Assembly (NCBI RefSeq): GCF_004121075.1
Contig: NZ_RHLN01000161.1
Span: 1 to 64,000, forward strand
Reading direction: 5' to 3'
Source of the DNA: Lutibacter sp. HS1-25
GTDB taxonomy: Bacteria; Bacteroidota; Bacteroidia; Flavobacteriales; Flavobacteriaceae
Length of the DNA stretch: 64,000 nucleotides
Of the stretch, positions 43,315 to 51,457 are shown piece after piece. The notes below the pieces were generated by a model. The model was not told the origin of the DNA, ran no database searches, and saw only the letters and a list, made by a program, of their open reading frames with translations. Numbering within the stretch: the first letter of the stretch is position 1; the number at the start of each line of letters is the position of its first letter. The position numbers and the translations under genes were made by a program.

Positions 43315-43665
43315 TTACTTGAAATTTTGTTTAAACCAAACTTTTTGAAATTCTCGTTTTAAAACAAGAAACACTATTTGATCAACAATTTCAGGTAAAT
43401 CTTTTTCTTTTATTTTTAGCAATTCAGACTCCGAAACATCAACTCTGTATACAAAATTTAAATAATCATCATATTTATTGGTGATTAGATTTGATAAAAT
43501 TGTTGTAAAATCTTCTTTTAATTGAATGGGCGAAATATTTTCTTCAAAAGAAAAGTACAAATTTGAAAGCTGAAAATCTTTGTTTATTTGTGCTACTAGT
43601 TTCGAATATAAATTTTCATCCTTACTGTTTTGCAATACTTCTATCGCGTTTTTAGCGACCAACAT
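43315..43665 (-). CDS. Conserved-looking protein coupled to polyprenyl synthetase
   Basis: The family is not recognised. This 116-residue, mostly helical acidic/basic protein has no cysteine, signal peptide or membrane segment. Its start codon overlaps the stop of the polyprenyl synthetase by one base (TAATG), so the two are translationally coupled. The C-terminal KREFQKVWFKQNF is basic and aromatic. The coupling suggests a partner role for the synthase or an adjacent function; the sequence alone does not say which. Confidence 0.8.
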   Translation of the reverse strand: MLVAKNAIEVLQNSKDENLYSKLVAQINKDFQLSNLYFSFEENISPIQLKEDFTTILSNLITNKYDDYLNFVYRVDVSESELLKIKEKDLPEIVDQIVFLVLKREFQKVWFKQNFK

Positions 43666-44636
43666 TATGCTTTTCTTTTCATTAAATTCAGCCCAAAATT
43701 TCTTAAGTACAATTTATTATCTTCAGAAATTGAGCTAGTTTCTAAAACTTTAAAAGCTTTGTTTGAATAAAATTCCATTTCATTTGAAGTTAACTGGGCT
43801 ATGTTATATTTGTTAAAAATTGCAGTAACTTCATTTACTTTATTAAGATTTTTCTCTTTTGAATTGTATAATGAAATTAATTGTTGTTTGTCATTATCAT
43901 CACAAACTTCCAACGCTCTTAAATACAAAAATGTTTTTTTGTTTTCAATAATATCTCCACCAATTTGTTTTCCAAAATCTTCATAATTTCCAAAAGTGTC
44001 TAAATAATCATCTTGCAACTGAAAAGCAACCCCTAAATTCAACCCAAAATCGTATATTTTTTGAGCTTCACTGGATTCAACTTCAGCAATTATAGCACCC
44101 ATTTTCATAGCAGCTCCAACTAAAACAGAAGTTTTATTGGTAATCATATGAATGTATTCAGGTATCTCAACATCATTTCTTGTTTCAAAATCAACGTCTA
44201 ATTGTTGCCCTTCACAAACTTCCAAAGCTGTTTTACTAAGCAAAACCATCAATTCTTTAAAAATTGAAACATCATAACTTTCTAAACATTGATAAGCTAC
44301 AATCATCATAGCATCTCCCGACAAAATTCCTGTATTAACATCCCATTTTGTATGCACAGTTTCTTTACCTCTTCGTGCGGGTGCACTGTCCATAATATCA
44401 TCATGTATTAAGGTAAAGTTATGAAAAACCTCAACCGCTAAAGCAGCATCATAAGCCTTACGCAAATTTCCTCCAAAAAGATCACAAGTCATCAATGTTA
44501 AAACCGGACGCAATCGCTTACCTCCTATTTGCAAAATGTAATGTATAGGTTCGTATAAATTTACTGGCTCCTTAACTTTAACTTTTTCATTTAAATAGTT
44601 GATAAAATCTTCTTTATAGGTATTGATTGACTTCAT
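43665..44636 (-). CDS. Polyprenyl (isoprenyl) diphosphate synthase
   Basis: This 323-residue trans-prenyltransferase elongates allylic diphosphates with isopentenyl diphosphate. The first aspartate-rich motif is HDDIMDSAPARRG (D79, D80, D83) and the second is QLQDDYLDTFG. GGKRLRPVL (38-46) is the substrate-binding start. Product length depends on the residues just before the first motif (FHNFTLI), with small aromatic residues suggesting a medium chain; this is not decisive. It could supply farnesyl/geranylgeranyl or menaquinone side chains. Confidence 0.93.
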   Translation of the reverse strand: MKSINTYKEDFINYLNEKVKVKEPVNLYEPIHYILQIGGKRLRPVLTLMTCDLFGGNLRKAYDAALAVEVFHNFTLIHDDIMDSAPARRGKETVHTKWDVNTGILSGDAMMIVAYQCLESYDVSIFKELMVLLSKTALEVCEGQQLDVDFETRNDVEIPEYIHMITNKTSVLVGAAMKMGAIIAEVESSEAQKIYDFGLNLGVAFQLQDDYLDTFGNYEDFGKQIGGDIIENKKTFLYLRALEVCDDNDKQQLISLYNSKEKNLNKVNEVTAIFNKYNIAQLTSNEMEFYSNKAFKVLETSSISEDNKLYLRNFGLNLMKRKA

Positions 44637-44723
44637 TTAAAAATTTTTATGTAAAAATACACCTTTCAATAATATTACAAAGTTTCAGTGTTAATTTTAA
44701 ATATTATGAAATTATTAAACTTT

Positions 44724-44751
44724 GGAAACTTTATTTGTTTCTAAAGTTTCC
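44724..44751. promoter_or_regulatory. TetR operator: 10-bp perfect inverted repeat centred on the -33 box
   Basis: GGAAACTTTA (44724-44733) is the exact reverse complement of TAAAGTTTCC (44742-44751), separated by TTTGTTTC. The first four spacer bases are the TTTG -33 element. A dimeric repressor bound here would block RNA polymerase. The adjacent TetR gene is the obvious candidate. Confidence 0.85.
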
Positions 44752-44764
44752 TTTTATATATTTG
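44734..44764 (+). promoter_or_regulatory. Consensus promoter of the TetR-RND efflux operon
   Basis: TTTG (44734-44737), exactly 19 bases, then TATATTTG (44757-44764). This perfect match lies 33 bases before the ATG of the TetR gene, with the operator over its -33 half. Confidence 0.88.
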
Positions 44765-44796
44765 CAACCCAATAGCATAAATTGAAATTGAATTTT

Positions 44797-45396
44797 ATGA
44801 AAGAAGTAATTTTAGATAAAGCTGGAGAAATTTTCTTAAAACTTGGTTTTAAGAGCGTTACAATGGATGATATTGCCAACGAGCTTGGAATTTCAAAAAA
44901 AACAATTTATAAATATTTTAAAAACAAAGCCCATTTAGTTGATGAAACTACGTTTTACATGCACGAAGCAATGCACAAAGAAGCATTAAAAGTATATAAT
45001 TTGGGTTATAATGCAATTCAAGAAAATTTTGAAGTAAACAAAGTTTTCAAAGGTTTTATGCAAAATTTAGACGATTCGCCTATTTATCAGCTTCAAAAAT
45101 ACTACCCAGAGACTTACAAAAAAATAATGTCACAAGAATTTTGTTTGTTTAAAGACTGCATGTTAAGTAACATTCAAAAAGGAATTAAAGAAGGCTTGTA
45201 TAGAAAAGAAATTACAATAGACCAAGTTACAAAATTTTACTTTTCACTTATTATGAGTGTTCACGATTCAAATTTATACACGTACAGTAAAAATACCATC
45301 AACAAATTAGAAATAAATGTATTAGAATACCACACAAGAGCAATAGCTACAGAAAAAGGAATTGAAATTTTAGAAGAACAATTAAACAATATTTAA
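44797..45396 (+). CDS. TetR-family transcriptional regulator of the efflux operon
   Basis: This 199-residue protein has an N-terminal helix-turn-helix at about 8-55 (FKSVTMDDIANELGISKKT, then IYKYFKNKAHLV). A helical ligand-binding domain fills the rest. The start is the ATG at 44797, not the TTG at 44782. It is the first gene of TetR-TolC-adaptor-RND, with its stop 2 bases before the TolC start. The operator over the promoter indicates autorepression, with release by an unknown ligand, probably a pump substrate. Confidence 0.93.
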   Translation: MKEVILDKAGEIFLKLGFKSVTMDDIANELGISKKTIYKYFKNKAHLVDETTFYMHEAMHKEALKVYNLGYNAIQENFEVNKVFKGFMQNLDDSPIYQLQKYYPETYKKIMSQEFCLFKDCMLSNIQKGIKEGLYRKEITIDQVTKFYFSLIMSVHDSNLYTYSKNTINKLEINVLEYHTRAIATEKGIEILEEQLNNI

Positions 45397-45398
45397 AT

Positions 45399-46739
45399 AT
45401 GAAAAAATATCTGATCCTAATTTTAGGAATAATAACTACTACTTTAAACGCACAAGAAACTTTGTCTTTGTCGCTTGATGAAGCCATTGCTTATGCGCTA
45501 AAAAATAGTTATGCAAGTATAAATGCAACTAGAGACCTTGAATATTCTAAACAAAAAAACAAAGAAACTGTTGCCTTTGGTTTACCACAACTTAATGCTG
45601 GACTTGATTACCAATATTGGATAAAACAGCAAGTTGCTTTAATTCCGGCTGAATTTGGCGGTGGAAATCCGGGTGATTTTGTTGAAGTAATATTTGGTAC
45701 AAAAAATAGTTTATCGGCTTCAGCAACATTAACACAAGTAATTTTTGATGGATCTTATATTGTTGGCTTAGCTTACCTTGACACTTATATGCAAATTTCA
45801 AGAGATTCTAAAGAAAAAACGGAACTTGCAATTAGAGAAGCCGTAATTAATGCTTACGGAAATGTACTTTTTACTGAAGAAGGTATTTCAATACTTCAAA
45901 AAAACGTTGAAACTTTAGAAAAAAACTTAGAAGAAACCAATCAGATTTATTTAAATGGTCTTGCTGAAGAAGAAAGTGTAGAACAACTTAAACTAACCTT
46001 AGCTTCACTAAAAACAACCTTATCAAAAAGTCAAAAATTAAAAAATATCAATTATAAAATGTTCAATATTACCATTGGAGCAGATATTAACACAAACACA
46101 ACTTTAACTGATAATTTAGACGATTTAACAAAAGAAAATATTGAATTTAGCTTGTTATCAAAAGAATTTAACATTGAAGATCATATTGATTTTAGAATTG
46201 CCGAAAATCAAGTTGAAGGCAGAGAAGCAGTTGTAAAATTAGAAAAAAGCAAGGCATTGCCAACATTAAATAGTTTTGTAAATTTTGGCTATATAGGCTA
46301 TAGTGATACATTTTCATTTCATAAAAGTGAGCAAAATTGGTTCGACTCCTCTTTACTTGGAGTTAATTTAAGCGTTCCTATTTTTAGCGGATTGGCAAGA
46401 AGCGCCAGAACCCAACAAGCAAAAATTGAATACGACAAAGCAAAAACTAATTTTGATGAAACCCGTCAAAAAATAATGTTAGAATTAGAAACTGCAAAAG
46501 TAACTTATCAATATAGTGTTGAAGAATTTGAAACTTCGAAACAAAATTTAGCATTAGCAGAACGAATTGAAAAGAAACAACAAATTAAATTTTTTGAAGG
46601 ACTTTCAACAAGTTTTGACCTTACAAATGCACAAAATCAATTGTACACAATGCAACAAAATTATTTACAAGCAATGTTAGATGTTATAGCTTCAAAAGCA
46701 GCCTTAGACAAAGCATTAAACACACCAATCAACAACTAA
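45399..46739 (+). CDS. TolC-family outer-membrane efflux protein
   Basis: This 446-residue protein has a signal peptide (1-19, ending TTLNAQ) followed by two long coiled-coil repeats typical of the TolC tunnel. Family words include LSLDEAIAYALKNSY near the front and SVPIFSGLARSARTQQAKIE in the second repeat, ending LDKALNTP. It forms the outer-membrane exit duct for the adaptor and RND pump encoded immediately downstream. The spacing to the adaptor gene is 12 bases. Confidence 0.94.
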   Translation: MKKYLILILGIITTTLNAQETLSLSLDEAIAYALKNSYASINATRDLEYSKQKNKETVAFGLPQLNAGLDYQYWIKQQVALIPAEFGGGNPGDFVEVIFGTKNSLSASATLTQVIFDGSYIVGLAYLDTYMQISRDSKEKTELAIREAVINAYGNVLFTEEGISILQKNVETLEKNLEETNQIYLNGLAEEESVEQLKLTLASLKTTLSKSQKLKNINYKMFNITIGADINTNTTLTDNLDDLTKENIEFSLLSKEFNIEDHIDFRIAENQVEGREAVVKLEKSKALPTLNSFVNFGYIGYSDTFSFHKSEQNWFDSSLLGVNLSVPIFSGLARSARTQQAKIEYDKAKTNFDETRQKIMLELETAKVTYQYSVEEFETSKQNLALAERIEKKQQIKFFEGLSTSFDLTNAQNQLYTMQQNYLQAMLDVIASKAALDKALNTPINN

Positions 46740-46751
46740 AAAACTATTAAC

Positions 46752-47924
46752 ATGAAATACTTTTATACCATAATAGCAGTCACTTTTTTATTCATCTCTT
46801 GTGGAGGACATGATGCAACACAAAGTTTAGATACCATACTTGAAGCTGGAGATATAACAGCTATCAAATCTAAAAGAGCTGAAATTGCCGCAAAACAAAA
46901 AGAACTTGGAGAACAACTACTTTTAATTGATGAAAAAATTGCTGAACTTCAGCCAAATAAAAAAATACCTTTAACAACTATTATTACTGCTAAAGAAGAC
47001 GTTTTTAAGCATTATATAGATTTACAAGGAAATGTAACCACAAAAAGTAATTTGGTGATTTTTCCAGAATATGCCGGAATCTTAAAAGAAGTAAATGTTG
47101 TTGAAGGTCAAACTGTAAAAAAAGGTCAAATTTTAGCTCGAATAGATGATGGAGGCTTAAGTCAACAATTATCTCAATTAAAAATTCAACTAGAACTTTC
47201 AAAAACAACCTACGAACGTCAGGCTCGTTTATGGAATCAAAAAATTGGATCTGAAATGCAATATTTACAAACAAAATCTTCATATGAAGCACAACAAAAA
47301 GCCATTATTCAACTTGAAGAACAAGTAGCTAAAACAATCATTAAAGCCCCTTTTGATGGTACTATTGATGATGTTATAACACAACAAGGAAGTGTAGTTT
47401 CACCAGGTCAATCACAATTAATGCGTATTATCAATTTAAGCAATATGTATATTGAAACTGATGTTCCTGAGAGCCACATTAAAACCGTTACCAAAAACAA
47501 AAAAGTTATCATCGATTTTCCGGTATTAGGCATTACAATTGATGGCGAAATAAGACAAGCTGGAAACTTTATCAACCCAGCTAACAGAACTTTTAAAATT
47601 GAAGTTGCAGTTCCTAATAAAGACAATTCAATTAAACCAAATTTAACTGCAAAACTTAAAATTAACGATTATATAAACCCTAATGCCATATTAATACCGC
47701 AAAGTATTATTTCTGAAAATGCCAATGGTCAACAATATGTATATGTTGTTCAAGGCAGAAACGGTACTGACCAAGGTAGTGCACACAGAGTAATTATTGA
47801 AACTGGCCGAACTCAAGGAGATGAAATAGAAGTACTAGCTGGAATTTCAGTTGGAGATGAGATCATTAAAGAAGGTGCCAGAAGCATAAAAGATGCACAA
47901 ACTGTAAAAATTTTAAACCTATAA
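46752..47924 (+). CDS. RND efflux periplasmic adaptor (membrane fusion protein), lipoprotein
   Basis: This 390-residue protein has a lipobox LFISCGG, giving a lipidated Cys17. A coiled-coil segment (about 35-70) precedes a lipoyl-like domain with VVEGQTVKKGQILARID and a helical hairpin. The second half-lipoyl segment is TIIKAPFDGTIDDVITQQG, then come a beta barrel and a membrane-proximal domain. It bridges the pump and TolC. The order TolC-adaptor-pump and 9-base spacing to the pump fit a single machine. Confidence 0.95.
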   Translation: MKYFYTIIAVTFLFISCGGHDATQSLDTILEAGDITAIKSKRAEIAAKQKELGEQLLLIDEKIAELQPNKKIPLTTIITAKEDVFKHYIDLQGNVTTKSNLVIFPEYAGILKEVNVVEGQTVKKGQILARIDDGGLSQQLSQLKIQLELSKTTYERQARLWNQKIGSEMQYLQTKSSYEAQQKAIIQLEEQVAKTIIKAPFDGTIDDVITQQGSVVSPGQSQLMRIINLSNMYIETDVPESHIKTVTKNKKVIIDFPVLGITIDGEIRQAGNFINPANRTFKIEVAVPNKDNSIKPNLTAKLKINDYINPNAILIPQSIISENANGQQYVYVVQGRNGTDQGSAHRVIIETGRTQGDEIEVLAGISVGDEIIKEGARSIKDAQTVKILNL

Positions 47925-47933
47925 TTTATCAAA

Positions 47934-50900
47934 ATGGCAAAACAAGAAAAACAAATTGATAAAGAGTTTAAACTATCATCCTGGGCAATAGACAACAAAA
48001 CAACGATCTATGTACTAATGGTTTTAATTCTATTTTTAGGTATTTCGGCATTTTACAATATGCCACGTGAAAATTTTCCTGAAATTAAAGAAACAAAAAT
48101 TTACATCAGCTCTGTTTTCCCCGGAAATACCGCTGAAGACATTGAAAAATTAATTACCAATCCGCTTGAAGAAAAACTAGAAACGGTTAGTAATGTTGTT
48201 GAAATTACCTCAACTTCTCAAGAAGACTACTCAATGGTAATTGTAGAGTTTGACGAACATGTTACTGTTGAGCAAGCCAAACAAAAAGTAAAAGATGAAA
48301 TTGAATCTGAAACATCAAGTGAAGACTGGCCAACATTTAATGGCGCAAAAGTTGAACCAAATGTTTTTGAATTAAGTATATCTGAAGCTGTTCCAATTCT
48401 TAATATCAATATTTCTGGAGATTATCCTGTAGAACGTTTAAAAGAATTTGGAGAATACTTAGAAGATGAAATTGAAAATCTTCCTCAAATAAAAGAAGTT
48501 GACATTAGAGGTGCGCAAGAAAAAGAAGTAGAAGTTGCTGTTGATATTTTTAAAATGACTGCAGCTAAAGTAAACTACGACGACATTATTAATGCTATTA
48601 GTGCAGGAAACGTTACCATGTCTGCAGGTAATTTTATTGCAAGTGGACAAAGAAGAACTATTAGAATTATTGGCGAAATTGACAATCCTCAACAATTAGA
48701 AAATTTTGTTGTAAAATCTGAAAACGGAAACTCTATTTATTTAAAAGATGTTGCCTCAGTTGATTTTAAACCAAAAGACAAAACAACATATGCCCGAGAG
48801 TTTGGAAACACTGTTGTAATGCTTGATGTTAAAAAAAGAGCTGGTAAAAACATGGTCGATGCTGCAGAGCAAATACAAGAAATTGTAAAAAGTGCAAAAG
48901 AAAATGTATTTCCAGCAGATTTAGAAGTTACCATTGCAAACGACCAATCTTCTGTTACCGTTGGACAAGTAGATGATTTGGTAAACAACATTATTTTTGG
49001 AGTTATATTGGTTGTAACAGTACTTATGTTCTTCCTTGGTTTTAAAAATGCATTGTTTGTTGGGTTTGCCATACCAATGTCTATGTTTATGTCGTTAATG
49101 ATTTTAGATATGCTTGGCTATACCTTAAATACAATGGTATTGTTTGGGTTAATTATGGGACTAGGAATGCTCGTAGACAATGGTATTGTTGTTGTTGAAA
49201 ACGTATTCAGATTGATGGATGAAGAAGGCATGAGCCGTAAAGAAGCCGCTAAAAAAGGTATTGGAGAAATTGCATTTCCTATTATTATATCAACAGCAAC
49301 AACAGTAGCTGCTTTTATACCTTTAGGACTTTGGCCAGGAGTTATGGGTCAGTTTATGATTATTTTACCAATAACGCTTTCAATAGTTTTAGGTTCATCA
49401 CTATTTGTTGCAATATTCTTCAACTCTGTATTAGTTTCTCAGTTTATGACTACAGAAGATATTGATATGCCATTAAACAAAATTATAAAATTAACAAGCA
49501 TCATATCTATAATAGGACTATTTATCGCATTTTTTGGTGGTTCTTACAGCACTCTTGGTATTTTAATGATTACCACAGCCATTTTATTATGGATTTACAG
49601 ATTGTTTCTTAGAAAAATGGCTAACTATTTTCAAGAAAATATTTTAACAAAACTTGAGAGGTATTACGAAACAGCTTTAAGTAAATCTTTAAAAGGATGG
49701 AGAATGTATGTTTATACTGGTATTACAGTATTTTTATTGGTTTTCTCTTTTATCGCATTTGGAATTTCACTAGCCAAACAAAGAACTAAAGTCGAATTTT
49801 TTCCAGATAATAAACCCAATCAAATTATAGTTTATATTGAGTATCCTGAAGGTACAGATATTGAAAAAACGAATAAGATTACAAAACTTATTGAAAAACA
49901 GGTTTACGAAGTTTTAAATAATAATTTGTACTTAGATAATGGGTATAACTTTATGGTAGAAAGTGCTGTTTCGCAAGTTGGTGAAGGTGCTGGAAATCCA
50001 CAAACCGATGGTGGCTCTGCTGCTGAAATGCCTCATAAAGCAAAAATAACAGCTTCTATGCGTGAATATAAATATCGCCGTGGAGAAGACAGTGAGTTAC
50101 TAAGACAAAAAGTTCAAACAGCCTTGGTAGGAATTTATCCTGGTGTTTTAATTTCTGTTGAAAAAGATGCAAACGGACCACCTGCAGGACCTCCTGTAAA
50201 TATTGAAATTGAAGGTAACGATTACAACGAACTTATTGCTACTGCAGAAAGAATGCGTGATTTTATCAATTCAAGAAATATCCCAGGGATTGACGAATTA
50301 AAAATTGATGTTAACAAAGACAAACCTGCAATGCAGGTAATTATTGACCGAGAAAAAGCTGGCGAATTAGGTGTTAGTTCAGTAAAAGTTGGTCAGCAAT
50401 TAAGAAATTCAATTTTTGGTGCTAAAGCTGGTGTTTATAAAGAAAATGGAGAAGATTATGATATTTACGTTCGTTTTAACGAAGAAAATAGATATAGTAC
50501 AAGTGCCATTTTTAACCAAAACATTACATTTAGAGATATGGCTTCAGGAAAAATTAAAGAAATTCCTGTTTCAACTGTTGCCAAACAAACAAATACATCT
50601 GGGTTTAGTGCAATTAAACACAAAGATGTTAAACGTGTTGTAACCGTTTATTCTGCATTAGCTCCTGGCTATACAGATGCTGGTGCTATTGTAAATCAAA
50701 TTAGAGATGCAATGAATGATTTTACCAATTTACCTAAAGGTATTAAAATTGATTATACGGGTCAAATTGAAGAACAAAACAAACAAATGGCTTTTTTAAT
50801 GGGCGCATTTTTTACCGGACTTTCTTTGATATTTTTCATCTTGATATTCCAATTTAACTCTATTTCTAAACCTGCAATTATTATGGGAGCAATCGCACTA

Positions 50901-51401
50901 AGTTTAATAGGTGTTTTTGGCGGAATGGTTATAACTGGTGATGCGTTTGTAATTATGATGACTATGATGGGTATTATTTCCCTCGCAGGTATTGTAGTAA
51001 ACAACGGTGTGGTTTTATTGGATTATGCACAATTATTAATTGATAGAAAAAAATATGAATTAAATTTAGATGAAGATGAGTTTTTATCGTTAAACGACAC
51101 TTATAACTGCATTGTTCTTGCTGGTAAAGCACGTTTAAGACCTGTACTTTTAACTGCCATTACAACTATTTTGGGACTTGTTCCTCTAGCTATTGGGTTA
51201 AACATAAATTTCTTTACCTTATTTAGCGAATTTAATCCACATATTTATATTGGTGGAGACAATGTTGTGTTTTGGGGACCATTGGCTTGGACAGTTATTT
51301 ATGGCTTGTTTGTAGCAACATTTTTAACCTTAATTATAGTTCCTATATTTTTCTTATTATCAATTAAATTAAAATATAAACTGAAAAGAGTCCATTTTTA
51401 A
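47934..51401 (+). CDS. RND multidrug/cation efflux permease, HAE1 type
   Basis: This 1155-residue protein has 12 predicted helices and two large periplasmic loops. NMPRENFPEIKETKI after helix 1 and FPGNTAEDIEKLITNPLEE are the classical RND porter opening. The proton-relay helix 4 contains GLGMLVDNGIVVVENVF. GTDIEKTNKITKLIE opens the second loop, and helix 10-11 includes GIVVNNGVVLLDYAQ. It is about 100 residues longer than AcrB, mainly in the helix 6-7 linker. Drugs, bile-like compounds or other hydrophobic molecules are likely substrates; the sequence does not resemble heavy-metal CzcA strongly enough to assign a metal. Confidence 0.94.
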   Translation: MAKQEKQIDKEFKLSSWAIDNKTTIYVLMVLILFLGISAFYNMPRENFPEIKETKIYISSVFPGNTAEDIEKLITNPLEEKLETVSNVVEITSTSQEDYSMVIVEFDEHVTVEQAKQKVKDEIESETSSEDWPTFNGAKVEPNVFELSISEAVPILNINISGDYPVERLKEFGEYLEDEIENLPQIKEVDIRGAQEKEVEVAVDIFKMTAAKVNYDDIINAISAGNVTMSAGNFIASGQRRTIRIIGEIDNPQQLENFVVKSENGNSIYLKDVASVDFKPKDKTTYAREFGNTVVMLDVKKRAGKNMVDAAEQIQEIVKSAKENVFPADLEVTIANDQSSVTVGQVDDLVNNIIFGVILVVTVLMFFLGFKNALFVGFAIPMSMFMSLMILDMLGYTLNTMVLFGLIMGLGMLVDNGIVVVENVFRLMDEEGMSRKEAAKKGIGEIAFPIIISTATTVAAFIPLGLWPGVMGQFMIILPITLSIVLGSSLFVAIFFNSVLVSQFMTTEDIDMPLNKIIKLTSIISIIGLFIAFFGGSYSTLGILMITTAILLWIYRLFLRKMANYFQENILTKLERYYETALSKSLKGWRMYVYTGITVFLLVFSFIAFGISLAKQRTKVEFFPDNKPNQIIVYIEYPEGTDIEKTNKITKLIEKQVYEVLNNNLYLDNGYNFMVESAVSQVGEGAGNPQTDGGSAAEMPHKAKITASMREYKYRRGEDSELLRQKVQTALVGIYPGVLISVEKDANGPPAGPPVNIEIEGNDYNELIATAERMRDFINSRNIPGIDELKIDVNKDKPAMQVIIDREKAGELGVSSVKVGQQLRNSIFGAKAGVYKENGEDYDIYVRFNEENRYSTSAIFNQNITFRDMASGKIKEIPVSTVAKQTNTSGFSAIKHKDVKRVVTVYSALAPGYTDAGAIVNQIRDAMNDFTNLPKGIKIDYTGQIEEQNKQMAFLMGAFFTGLSLIFFILIFQFNSISKPAIIMGAIALSLIGVFGGMVITGDAFVIMMTMMGIISLAGIVVNNGVVLLDYAQLLIDRKKYELNLDEDEFLSLNDTYNCIVLAGKARLRPVLLTAITTILGLVPLAIGLNINFFTLFSEFNPHIYIGGDNVVFWGPLAWTVIYGLFVATFLTLIIVPIFFLLSIKLKYKLKRVHF

Positions 51402-51421: not shown

Positions 51422-51457
51422 AAAAAGGTATTTCATTCAATTGAAATACCTTTTTTT
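51422..51457 (+). terminator. Terminator of the efflux operon
   Basis: AAAAAGGTATTTCA pairs with TTGAAATACCTTTTT around a short loop, followed by T7. It lies 20 bases after the permease stop and 15 before recX. Confidence 0.9.

Follow-up and report, generated by a model that had tools for sequence, protein, structure and literature searches.

A conserved, very probable and apparently compound TetR-family operator in the promoter of a Lutibacter efflux operon, with likely counterparts in other Bacteroidota families

Among the closest described systems, SmeT represses an RND pump by binding a 28-bp operator and sterically interfering with transcription (PMC3128119, in the part of the article available). 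According to the available sections of a structural account, TetR-family regulators occupy operators of 15-17 bp as one dimer and longer operators as a dimer of dimers, and DNA-bound dimers hold their recognition helices 31-38 Å apart, about one turn (PMC4150764); the helix spacing of MtrR is given as 37 Å (PMC8053128, excerpt). For flavobacterial promoters, genome-wide data on Flavobacterium johnsoniae, as excerpted, describe a -33 motif that is weak and much less evident (PMC6847099; likewise PMC7366714).

Here we analyze a 64,000-nt stretch of the Lutibacter sp. HS1-25 genome (contig NZ_RHLN01000161.1), called the window below, in which an inverted repeat precedes a run of efflux genes. From sequence comparison, we consider it highly probable that this repeat is the operator of the TetR regulator encoded downstream; two dimers probably bind it, and the whole operon would be repressed by exclusion of the polymerase. 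The initial annotation had described perfectly complementary 10-bp arms, which are indeed present as GGAAACTTTA (44724-44733) and TAAAGTTTCC (44742-44751). The 8-nt spacer between them, TTTGTTTC, opens with TTTG (44734-44737) as reported, and 19 bases separate this TTTG from TATATTTG (44757-44764), with the TetR start downstream. The whole site reads GGAAACTTTA-TTTGTTTC-TAAAGTTTCC (44724-44751), followed by TATATTTG. The repeat had also been called centred exactly on the TTTG; the two do overlap, but TTTG occupies the spacer's left half, and the 28-mer has its midpoint between 44737 and 44738. A second, longer and imperfect repeat overlaps the palindrome, pairing 44717-44729 with 44737-44749 (13-nt arms, 92% complementary). 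Numbering core columns from 1 at 44724, we distinguish the following parts.

44724-44751: putative core operator palindrome, GGAAACT-N14-AGTTTCC, its perfect arms here 10 bp long around a spacer of 8 nt
44717-44720: candidate outer half-site H1, AnAC, 9 bp upstream of the left-arm AAAC, in 94 of 96 sites
44724-44729: candidate half-site H2, GGAAAC (left arm), columns 1-7 near-invariant
44737-44740: candidate central half-site H3, GTnT, present in 94 of 96 sites and reverse-complementary to H1; its G is also the G of the proposed -33 TTTG
44746-44751: candidate half-site H4, GTTTCC (right arm), columns 22-28 near-invariant
44734-44737, plus strand: proposed -33 element TTTG, 19 nt ahead of the -7 box
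44757-44764, plus strand: -7 element TATATTTG (TAnnTTTG), 4-6 bp past the core in 95 of 96 sites

The genes around the site, and the elements assigned to them, are as follows; a mechanical ORF call begins the regulator at a TTG (44782), and its ATG lies at 44797.

44797-45396, plus strand: TetR-family regulator of 199 aa (Pfam TetR_N, E=5.3e-14; all-helical model, TetR-like)
45399-46739, plus strand: TolC-type outer membrane efflux protein (Pfam OEP, E=8.1e-47)
46752-47924, plus strand: RND periplasmic adaptor (NCBIfam RND_mfp, 200.1 bits against a cut-off of 94.9)
47934-51401, plus strand: RND permease (Pfam ACR_tran, E=1.7e-159)
51422-51455, plus strand: terminator-like hairpin in the interval between the RND gene and recX (14-bp stem, T-rich tail)
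43665-44636, minus strand: polyprenyl synthase, divergent and outside the operon (Pfam polyprenyl_synt, E=4e-76)
44652-44681, minus strand: proposed own promoter of the polyprenyl synthase, read from sequence as TATTTTTA (44652-44659) plus TTTG (44678-44681)

The regulator belongs to the TetR family by its match to Pfam PF00440 TetR_N (52.2 bits against a gathering cut-off of 24). Its predicted fold is all-helical (pLDDT 92.9), and the ten best Foldseek matches, with probability 1.00 and TM-scores of 0.54-0.75, are titled transcriptional regulators, mostly of the TetR family. The model resembles SmeT, FadR and KstR2 among many TetR regulators, a breadth of likeness that does not pin down the ligand. 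The protein lies in neither of two NCBIfam equivalogs, scoring 26.4 bits against a cut-off of 271 for AcrR and 24.6 against 280 for MtrR. Its closest named relatives are from Lutibacter species, with 92% identity to L. agarilyticus.

Profile matches, the tight packing of the genes (2, 12 and 9 nt apart) and the terminator-like hairpin after them agree with the TetR-TolC-adaptor-RND order of the initial annotation. The three pump genes follow TetR in this order in 72 of the 74 close-relative loci with at least 5 kb beyond the start, and the other two have no recognised adaptor. Of the 80 loci that were fetched first, 62 have all three downstream, and nine have none of the three by tblastn at 1e-5; among these nine, L221 lies at a contig end. 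At two distant loci (L188, L200), genes for an adaptor, an ABC component and an outer-membrane exporter component take the place of the RND pump behind a related TetR gene and its operator. In 72 of the 74 close-relative loci, the gene on the divergent side encodes a polyprenyl synthase, and the other two have short upstream sequence; its pairing with an efflux operon is a stable one. A further half-site-like sequence, AAAGTTTC (44679-44686), overlaps the proposed -33 of this synthase (region 44678-44686).

A perfect 10-bp repeat, taken by itself and without conservation, is not remarkable and argues only modestly against chance. With overlapping ones counted, the window has 13 perfect 10-bp inverted repeats with spacers of up to 8 nt, where 40 first-order Markov sequences have 2.95 on average and 10 at most. 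The 20 arm positions, in contrast, occur once in the 4.18-Mb draft genome even when up to three mismatches are tolerated (0.03 expected in the window), and it is this uniqueness, together with retention in relatives, that makes the palindrome more than a chance repeat. No match to the core GGAAACT-N14-AGTTTCC with one mismatch occurs elsewhere in the genome. At up to two mismatches, there are 20 sites, the exact one included, against 23 for a reversed-pattern control. A wider regulon in this genome was rejected on these counts and, because the near-matches stay at the control level, a single-target regulator is the best reading.

We assembled close relatives from two samples. The genus sample comprised 38 genomes, 35 with a regulator match and 30 listed as loci, the window's own included; the second sample took the best 80 loci of a named genome collection, most titled as Flavobacteriaceae or its genera and a few only as Flavobacteriales or Bacteroidetes. 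Three of these 110 loci (L005, L034 and L083) were dropped for having less than 80 bp of upstream sequence, and removal of 11 duplicates from the other 107 left 96 non-redundant upstream regions; the column profile uses 95 of them, one having a short flank. Although the regulator's identity falls to 41% within this set, the core is matched at 12 or more of its 14 letters in all 96 regions (14 in 87, 13 in eight and 12 in one). The distance from the core to TAnnTTTG is 5 bp in 65 regions, 4 bp in 25 and 6 bp in five, and one region has no exact match. The palindrome lies in the regulator's own promoter and is conserved together with the regulator, as expected of a local efflux repressor and its operator.

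Beyond the family, we searched 395 Bacteroidota genomes with the protein alone and obtained matches in 113, the other 282 having none at E 1e-12. This yielded 83 loci outside the window's family, chosen by protein similarity only and with 22-37% identity to the regulator; the 300 bp upstream were scanned, with positions counted from the start of the protein match rather than from a verified start codon. The core reaches at least 12/14 in 72 of these 83 loci, which, like the close relatives, share ancestry and so are not independent events. The first 58 take in nearly all of the better-scoring ones; 54 of the 58 reach at least 12, 41 at least 13 and 29 the full 14, compared with 18, eight and three of the remaining 25 (one of these 18, L249, is AT-rich and doubtful). 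By family labels, the distant loci cover 17 families besides the window's. Control windows of the same length further downstream, taken from the 58 loci, never reached 12 in 522 trials (five reached 11 and 64 reached 10), and Markov shuffles of the 58 reached 12 in 8 of 2900. The initial annotation had named comparison of orthologous upstream regions as a check on the repeat, and the outcome, 96/96 among close relatives and 72/83 outside the family, is strong conservation. Site, conservation, position and gene order are direct observations from the comparison.

The spacing is almost constant: perfect 7+7 pairs among 80 loci are separated by N14 in 44 of 46 cases, with N13 once and N15 once. 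Across the 395 genomes, the exact pattern is present in 85, against 10 for the reversed control, and among 30 pattern loci listed a TetR homolog is a next gene in 29. Eleven of the 83 distant loci miss the threshold: L170, L205 (11/14), L198, L203, and L228, L229, L237, L238, L244, L247 and L248, of which last seven four score 11/14. L170, the sole N13 case among the 46, has both half-sites perfect with a 13-nt spacer. The distant search also fetched 22 loci of the window's own family, five of them without a site within 300 bp; L196, L208 and L222 have no site in the 1.5 kb searched, and in L209 and L210 (both G239) the site stands 650-740 bp upstream of tetR. A recognition-helix signature, SKKT[IL]Y, was tried as a predictor of the operator and failed, homologs without a site carrying it too.

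The one exception among the 30 listed pattern loci, L145, has its sites before a YceI-domain gene that itself lies ahead of the TetR gene. In both L144 and L145, this gene stands between polyprenyl synthase and tetR and is preceded by two operator copies 45-51 bp apart; the domain (Pfam PF04264) was tested in L145. YceI proteins are isoprenoid binders, so its link with the polyprenyl synthase may be functional.

We now consider the internal structure of the site. In the 95-site profile, six columns outside the arms are conserved like the arms themselves: A-6, A-4, C-3, G14, T15 and T17. They form AnAC (-6 to -3) and GTnT (14-17), each in 94 of 96 sites, which are reverse complements with the same spacing as AAAC (3-6) and GTTT (23-26). 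Because this pair is conserved like the arms and spaced like their inner letters, the operator seems to be an array of four half-sites, with a pair 9 bp apart on each side of a pseudo-dyad at 44733, the symmetry that the imperfect repeat with 13-nt arms also shows. The initial annotation read a single site; its identification as a TetR operator stands, but the simple single-dimer form is unlikely, since AnAC at 44717-44720 is conserved as strongly as the arms. It had also placed TTTG at the centre, where it is present in this genome but is not the conserved element: TTG is absent from the centre of 15 of the 96 sites, 14 of which keep the near-invariant GTnT. G14 is fixed whatever the gap to the -7 box (25/25 at gap 4, 69/70 at gaps 5-6), and this constancy, with the retention of GTnT where TTG is lost, suggests that the centre belongs to the operator's frame and is first of all an operator half-site.

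In other families, the mirror form is common at the centre. It reads AC in 29 of the 54 distant sites and in 14 of the further 18, and GT in none of the 72; at the other spacer dinucleotides of the 54, GT or AC makes up 7.6%. The mirrored outer half-site GTnT accompanies 32 of the 54, and AnAC is on its original side in 13. Only 12 of the 29 AC-centred sites have the mirrored outer half-site, so that a clean flip accounts for 12 of 54 and the others are partial or lack it.

The operator is 28 bp in its core and 35 bp with H1, within the length of at least 22 bp that marks a QacR-type dimer of dimers. Its outer half-sites are separated by 20-22 bp, about two helical turns, which exceeds the helix spacing of one dimer and makes two dimers per operator the likelier reading by analogy; in a symmetric-dimer docking, the inner half-sites overlap and conflict.

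At 44757-44764 the -7 box has the TAnnTTTG form of a sigma-ABfr promoter, and a transcription start 4-5 nt beyond it, as in many F. johnsoniae promoters (PMC6847099, excerpt), would fall at about 44769-44770. Close relatives usually have a TTG at a distance of 18-20 nt from this box (80 occurrences across the 95 sites with a -7 box), and G13 is commoner at gap 4 (15/25) than at gaps 5-6 (14/70; Fisher p = 0.0004, uncorrected for ancestry). Further away, the -7 box follows the core by 1 bp in 23 of the 54 distant sites, and no TAnnTTTG was found within 16 bp of the core in 26 of them; the register of core and -7 box seen in this genome is not general. All 23 gap-1 loci, ten of them AC-centred, read TAGTTTTG, which contains AGTTTT, the reverse complement of AAAACT, and 18 of the 23 have a TTG 18-20 nt before the -7 box (exactly 19 in 14), within or beside the left arm. 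In F. johnsoniae promoters, G is virtually absent at the two free positions of TAnnTTTG (PMC6847099, excerpt). An operator constraint on TAGTTTTG fits this near-avoidance of G, with the proviso that the gap-1 loci come from other families.

A TTGAC lies inside an operator copy, mostly near its centre, in 13 of the 83 distant loci, and TTGCG or TTGTG in two more; this search covered sites with at least 11 of 12 outer letters and was made post hoc, after examples had been seen, with no control set. The 15 TTGAC-like loci come from four families, and in most the copy is an N17 version that has the motif mid-site and precedes a second site by about 41 bp; at 15-19 nt, the best hexamer of the -10 type agrees with TATAAT at 3-5 of 6 positions. 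The 15 are L188, L197, L199-L201, L230-L232, L234, L235, L240, L242-L244 and L247, where the TTGAC-like site precedes a second operator copy by about 40-43 bp; in L231, the upstream TTGAC-like copy is the only one seen at this threshold. In the four distant families, then, the promoter is apparently flanked or covered by tandem operators, and, with 13 loci holding TTGAC inside an operator copy, the burial of a promoter's upstream element within this operator may recur. For the TTTG of the window, which had been taken as a -33 element, the 19-nt spacing, the TTG trend and the TTGAC loci speak for that role, while the 15 of 96 sites lacking TTG, a conserved G that follows the operator frame and the faintness of the -33 motif genome-wide in F. 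johnsoniae speak against a strict role. We regard the -33 role of TTTG as plausible but unproven; for the G at 44737, a double function is probable, in the operator and, more weakly, in the promoter.

A simpler account would place one symmetric TetR dimer on the 28-bp palindrome and treat the spacer as neutral sequence that happens to hold the -33 TTTG. The arms are perfectly symmetric here, most close relatives have TTG at 18-20 nt from the -7 box, the gap-1 loci hold a left-arm TTG at that distance in 18 of 23 cases, G13 is enriched at gap 4, and TTGAC occurs within a site copy in 13 of 83 distant loci; the TTG, G13 and TTGAC trends suggest that the promoter's upstream element exerts a genuine constraint. 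However, the G13 test ignores shared ancestry and the TTGAC search was post hoc, whereas G14 and T15 are near-invariant at gaps 4, 5 and 6 even without a TTG, and AnAC, which lies outside the palindrome, is conserved equally well. A half-site separation of 20-22 bp is also too far for one dimer, judged by the helix spacings given in the available part of PMC4150764. We consider the single-dimer account unlikely, though less so than the two that follow.

Control by an unlinked regulator, or a dual site that also governs the divergent polyprenyl synthase, has in its favour that this gene is divergent in 72 of 74 loci. The operator nevertheless accompanies TetR where no polyprenyl synthase homolog lies in about 1.5 kb upstream, and it does so in ABC-exporter loci too, which leaves either possibility improbable. 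The synthase has promoter-like elements of its own, and in only 3 of 65 loci does its -33 run into the extended operator, by 1-2 nt (a rough placement, with 22 more having no recognised -7); on both grounds, its co-repression by occlusion is unlikely. An RNA hairpin or terminator, to which a consensus scan points by marking 44717-44749 and 44724-44751 as terminator-like, is the least probable of all and was rejected. The repeat lies upstream of the -7 box and would be absent from the tetR transcript of that promoter; T8 is changed to A in 16 of 95 sites while its partner A21 is changed in four, so that pairing is not compensated; and the letters GGAAACT are conserved, not merely their pairing. 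A scan of the region for sigma-70-type promoters was uninformative, its model representing another promoter class than the host's.

We return to the compound operator of the downstream regulator as the preferred reading. That the repeat is a TetR operator, as the initial annotation proposed, is very probable from its conservation with the regulator and its position before a good TAnnTTTG and the operon. The regulator encoded just downstream would bind the repeat, two dimers probably occupying the compound array of four half-sites at 44717-44751. Once bound, it would shield the -33 side of the promoter to within about 5 bp of the -7 box and so keep RNA polymerase out. The tetR-tolC-adaptor-RND genes would be repressed as a unit until some ligand frees the regulator and, with tetR as the first gene, the repression would be autoregulatory. 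Binding, stoichiometry, steric exclusion, co-transcription and induction are what we infer here from the comparison, and autorepression by steric exclusion is the best reading by analogy with described repressors.

On a larger scale, we give about an even chance to a reading whose parts would have to hold jointly. One TetR lineage would have kept a near-constant compound operator, GGAAAC-N16-GTTTCC with an asymmetric central half-site, across much of Bacteroidota, while the regulator itself drifted to 22-37% identity and the exporter changed from RND to ABC in some lineages. Promoters would have been fitted to this operator in various ways: through the central TTTG in the window's family, through a -7 box drawn from the outer half-site in TAGTTTTG, or, in four distant families, with tandem operators about 41 bp apart of which the upstream one carries TTGAC. 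The operator, and not the promoter, would then be the fixed frame, to which sigma-factor contacts have been fitted more than once. In the open-licence literature searched, no title or opening of an abstract among the best-ranked papers, and no excerpt of the papers cited, describes the operator sequence, its phylum-wide retention or its compound structure. If this reading is right, self-regulated efflux operons can be predicted from one consensus in many genomes of Bacteroidota, a phylum in which, by our impression from literature searches, few regulator-operator pairs appear to have been worked out. A near-identical operator combined with promoters in several registers would be a natural test of promoter and operator co-evolution, and it could help decide whether the weak flavobacterial -33 motif is real.

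The mechanism itself would be ordinary, that of a classical local TetR repressor; the pair of regulator and operator would be unusually ancient. The same TetR-TolC-adaptor-permease order is known in F. johnsoniae (FJOH_RS06575-06590) from a coevolution study, to which we liken this locus by gene order alone, the available part of that study not describing an operator (PMC10197871). Escherichia coli CecR, an ABC-exporter regulator, was considered as a relative with the same operator and rejected: GGAAAC-N16-GTTTCC is at chance in the ybhR-ybiA stretch that includes cecR (four matches at three mismatches against 3.19 expected), with none between cecR and rhlE. The local repressors AcrR and MtrR are alike in being TetR proteins that adjoin an RND pump, but the regulator here falls below both NCBIfam cut-offs. 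SmeT of Stenotrophomonas maltophilia is closer in arrangement, as a TetR repressor of the smeDEF RND pump with a 28-bp pseudo-palindromic operator in the promoter (PMC3128119, excerpt); its structures stand at ranks 9 and 14 of our fold search, as a distant match of 14-16% identity. The smeT promoter is separate from that of smeDEF, whereas the presumed operon in the window begins with its regulator gene. With QacR, CprB and other dimer-of-dimers regulators, the site shares its operator length, the use of long operators by two dimers and a helix spacing of 37-38 Å (PMC4150764, in the available sections), but differs from them in that its four half-sites, as read from the sequence, appear to form an interdigitated, asymmetric array.
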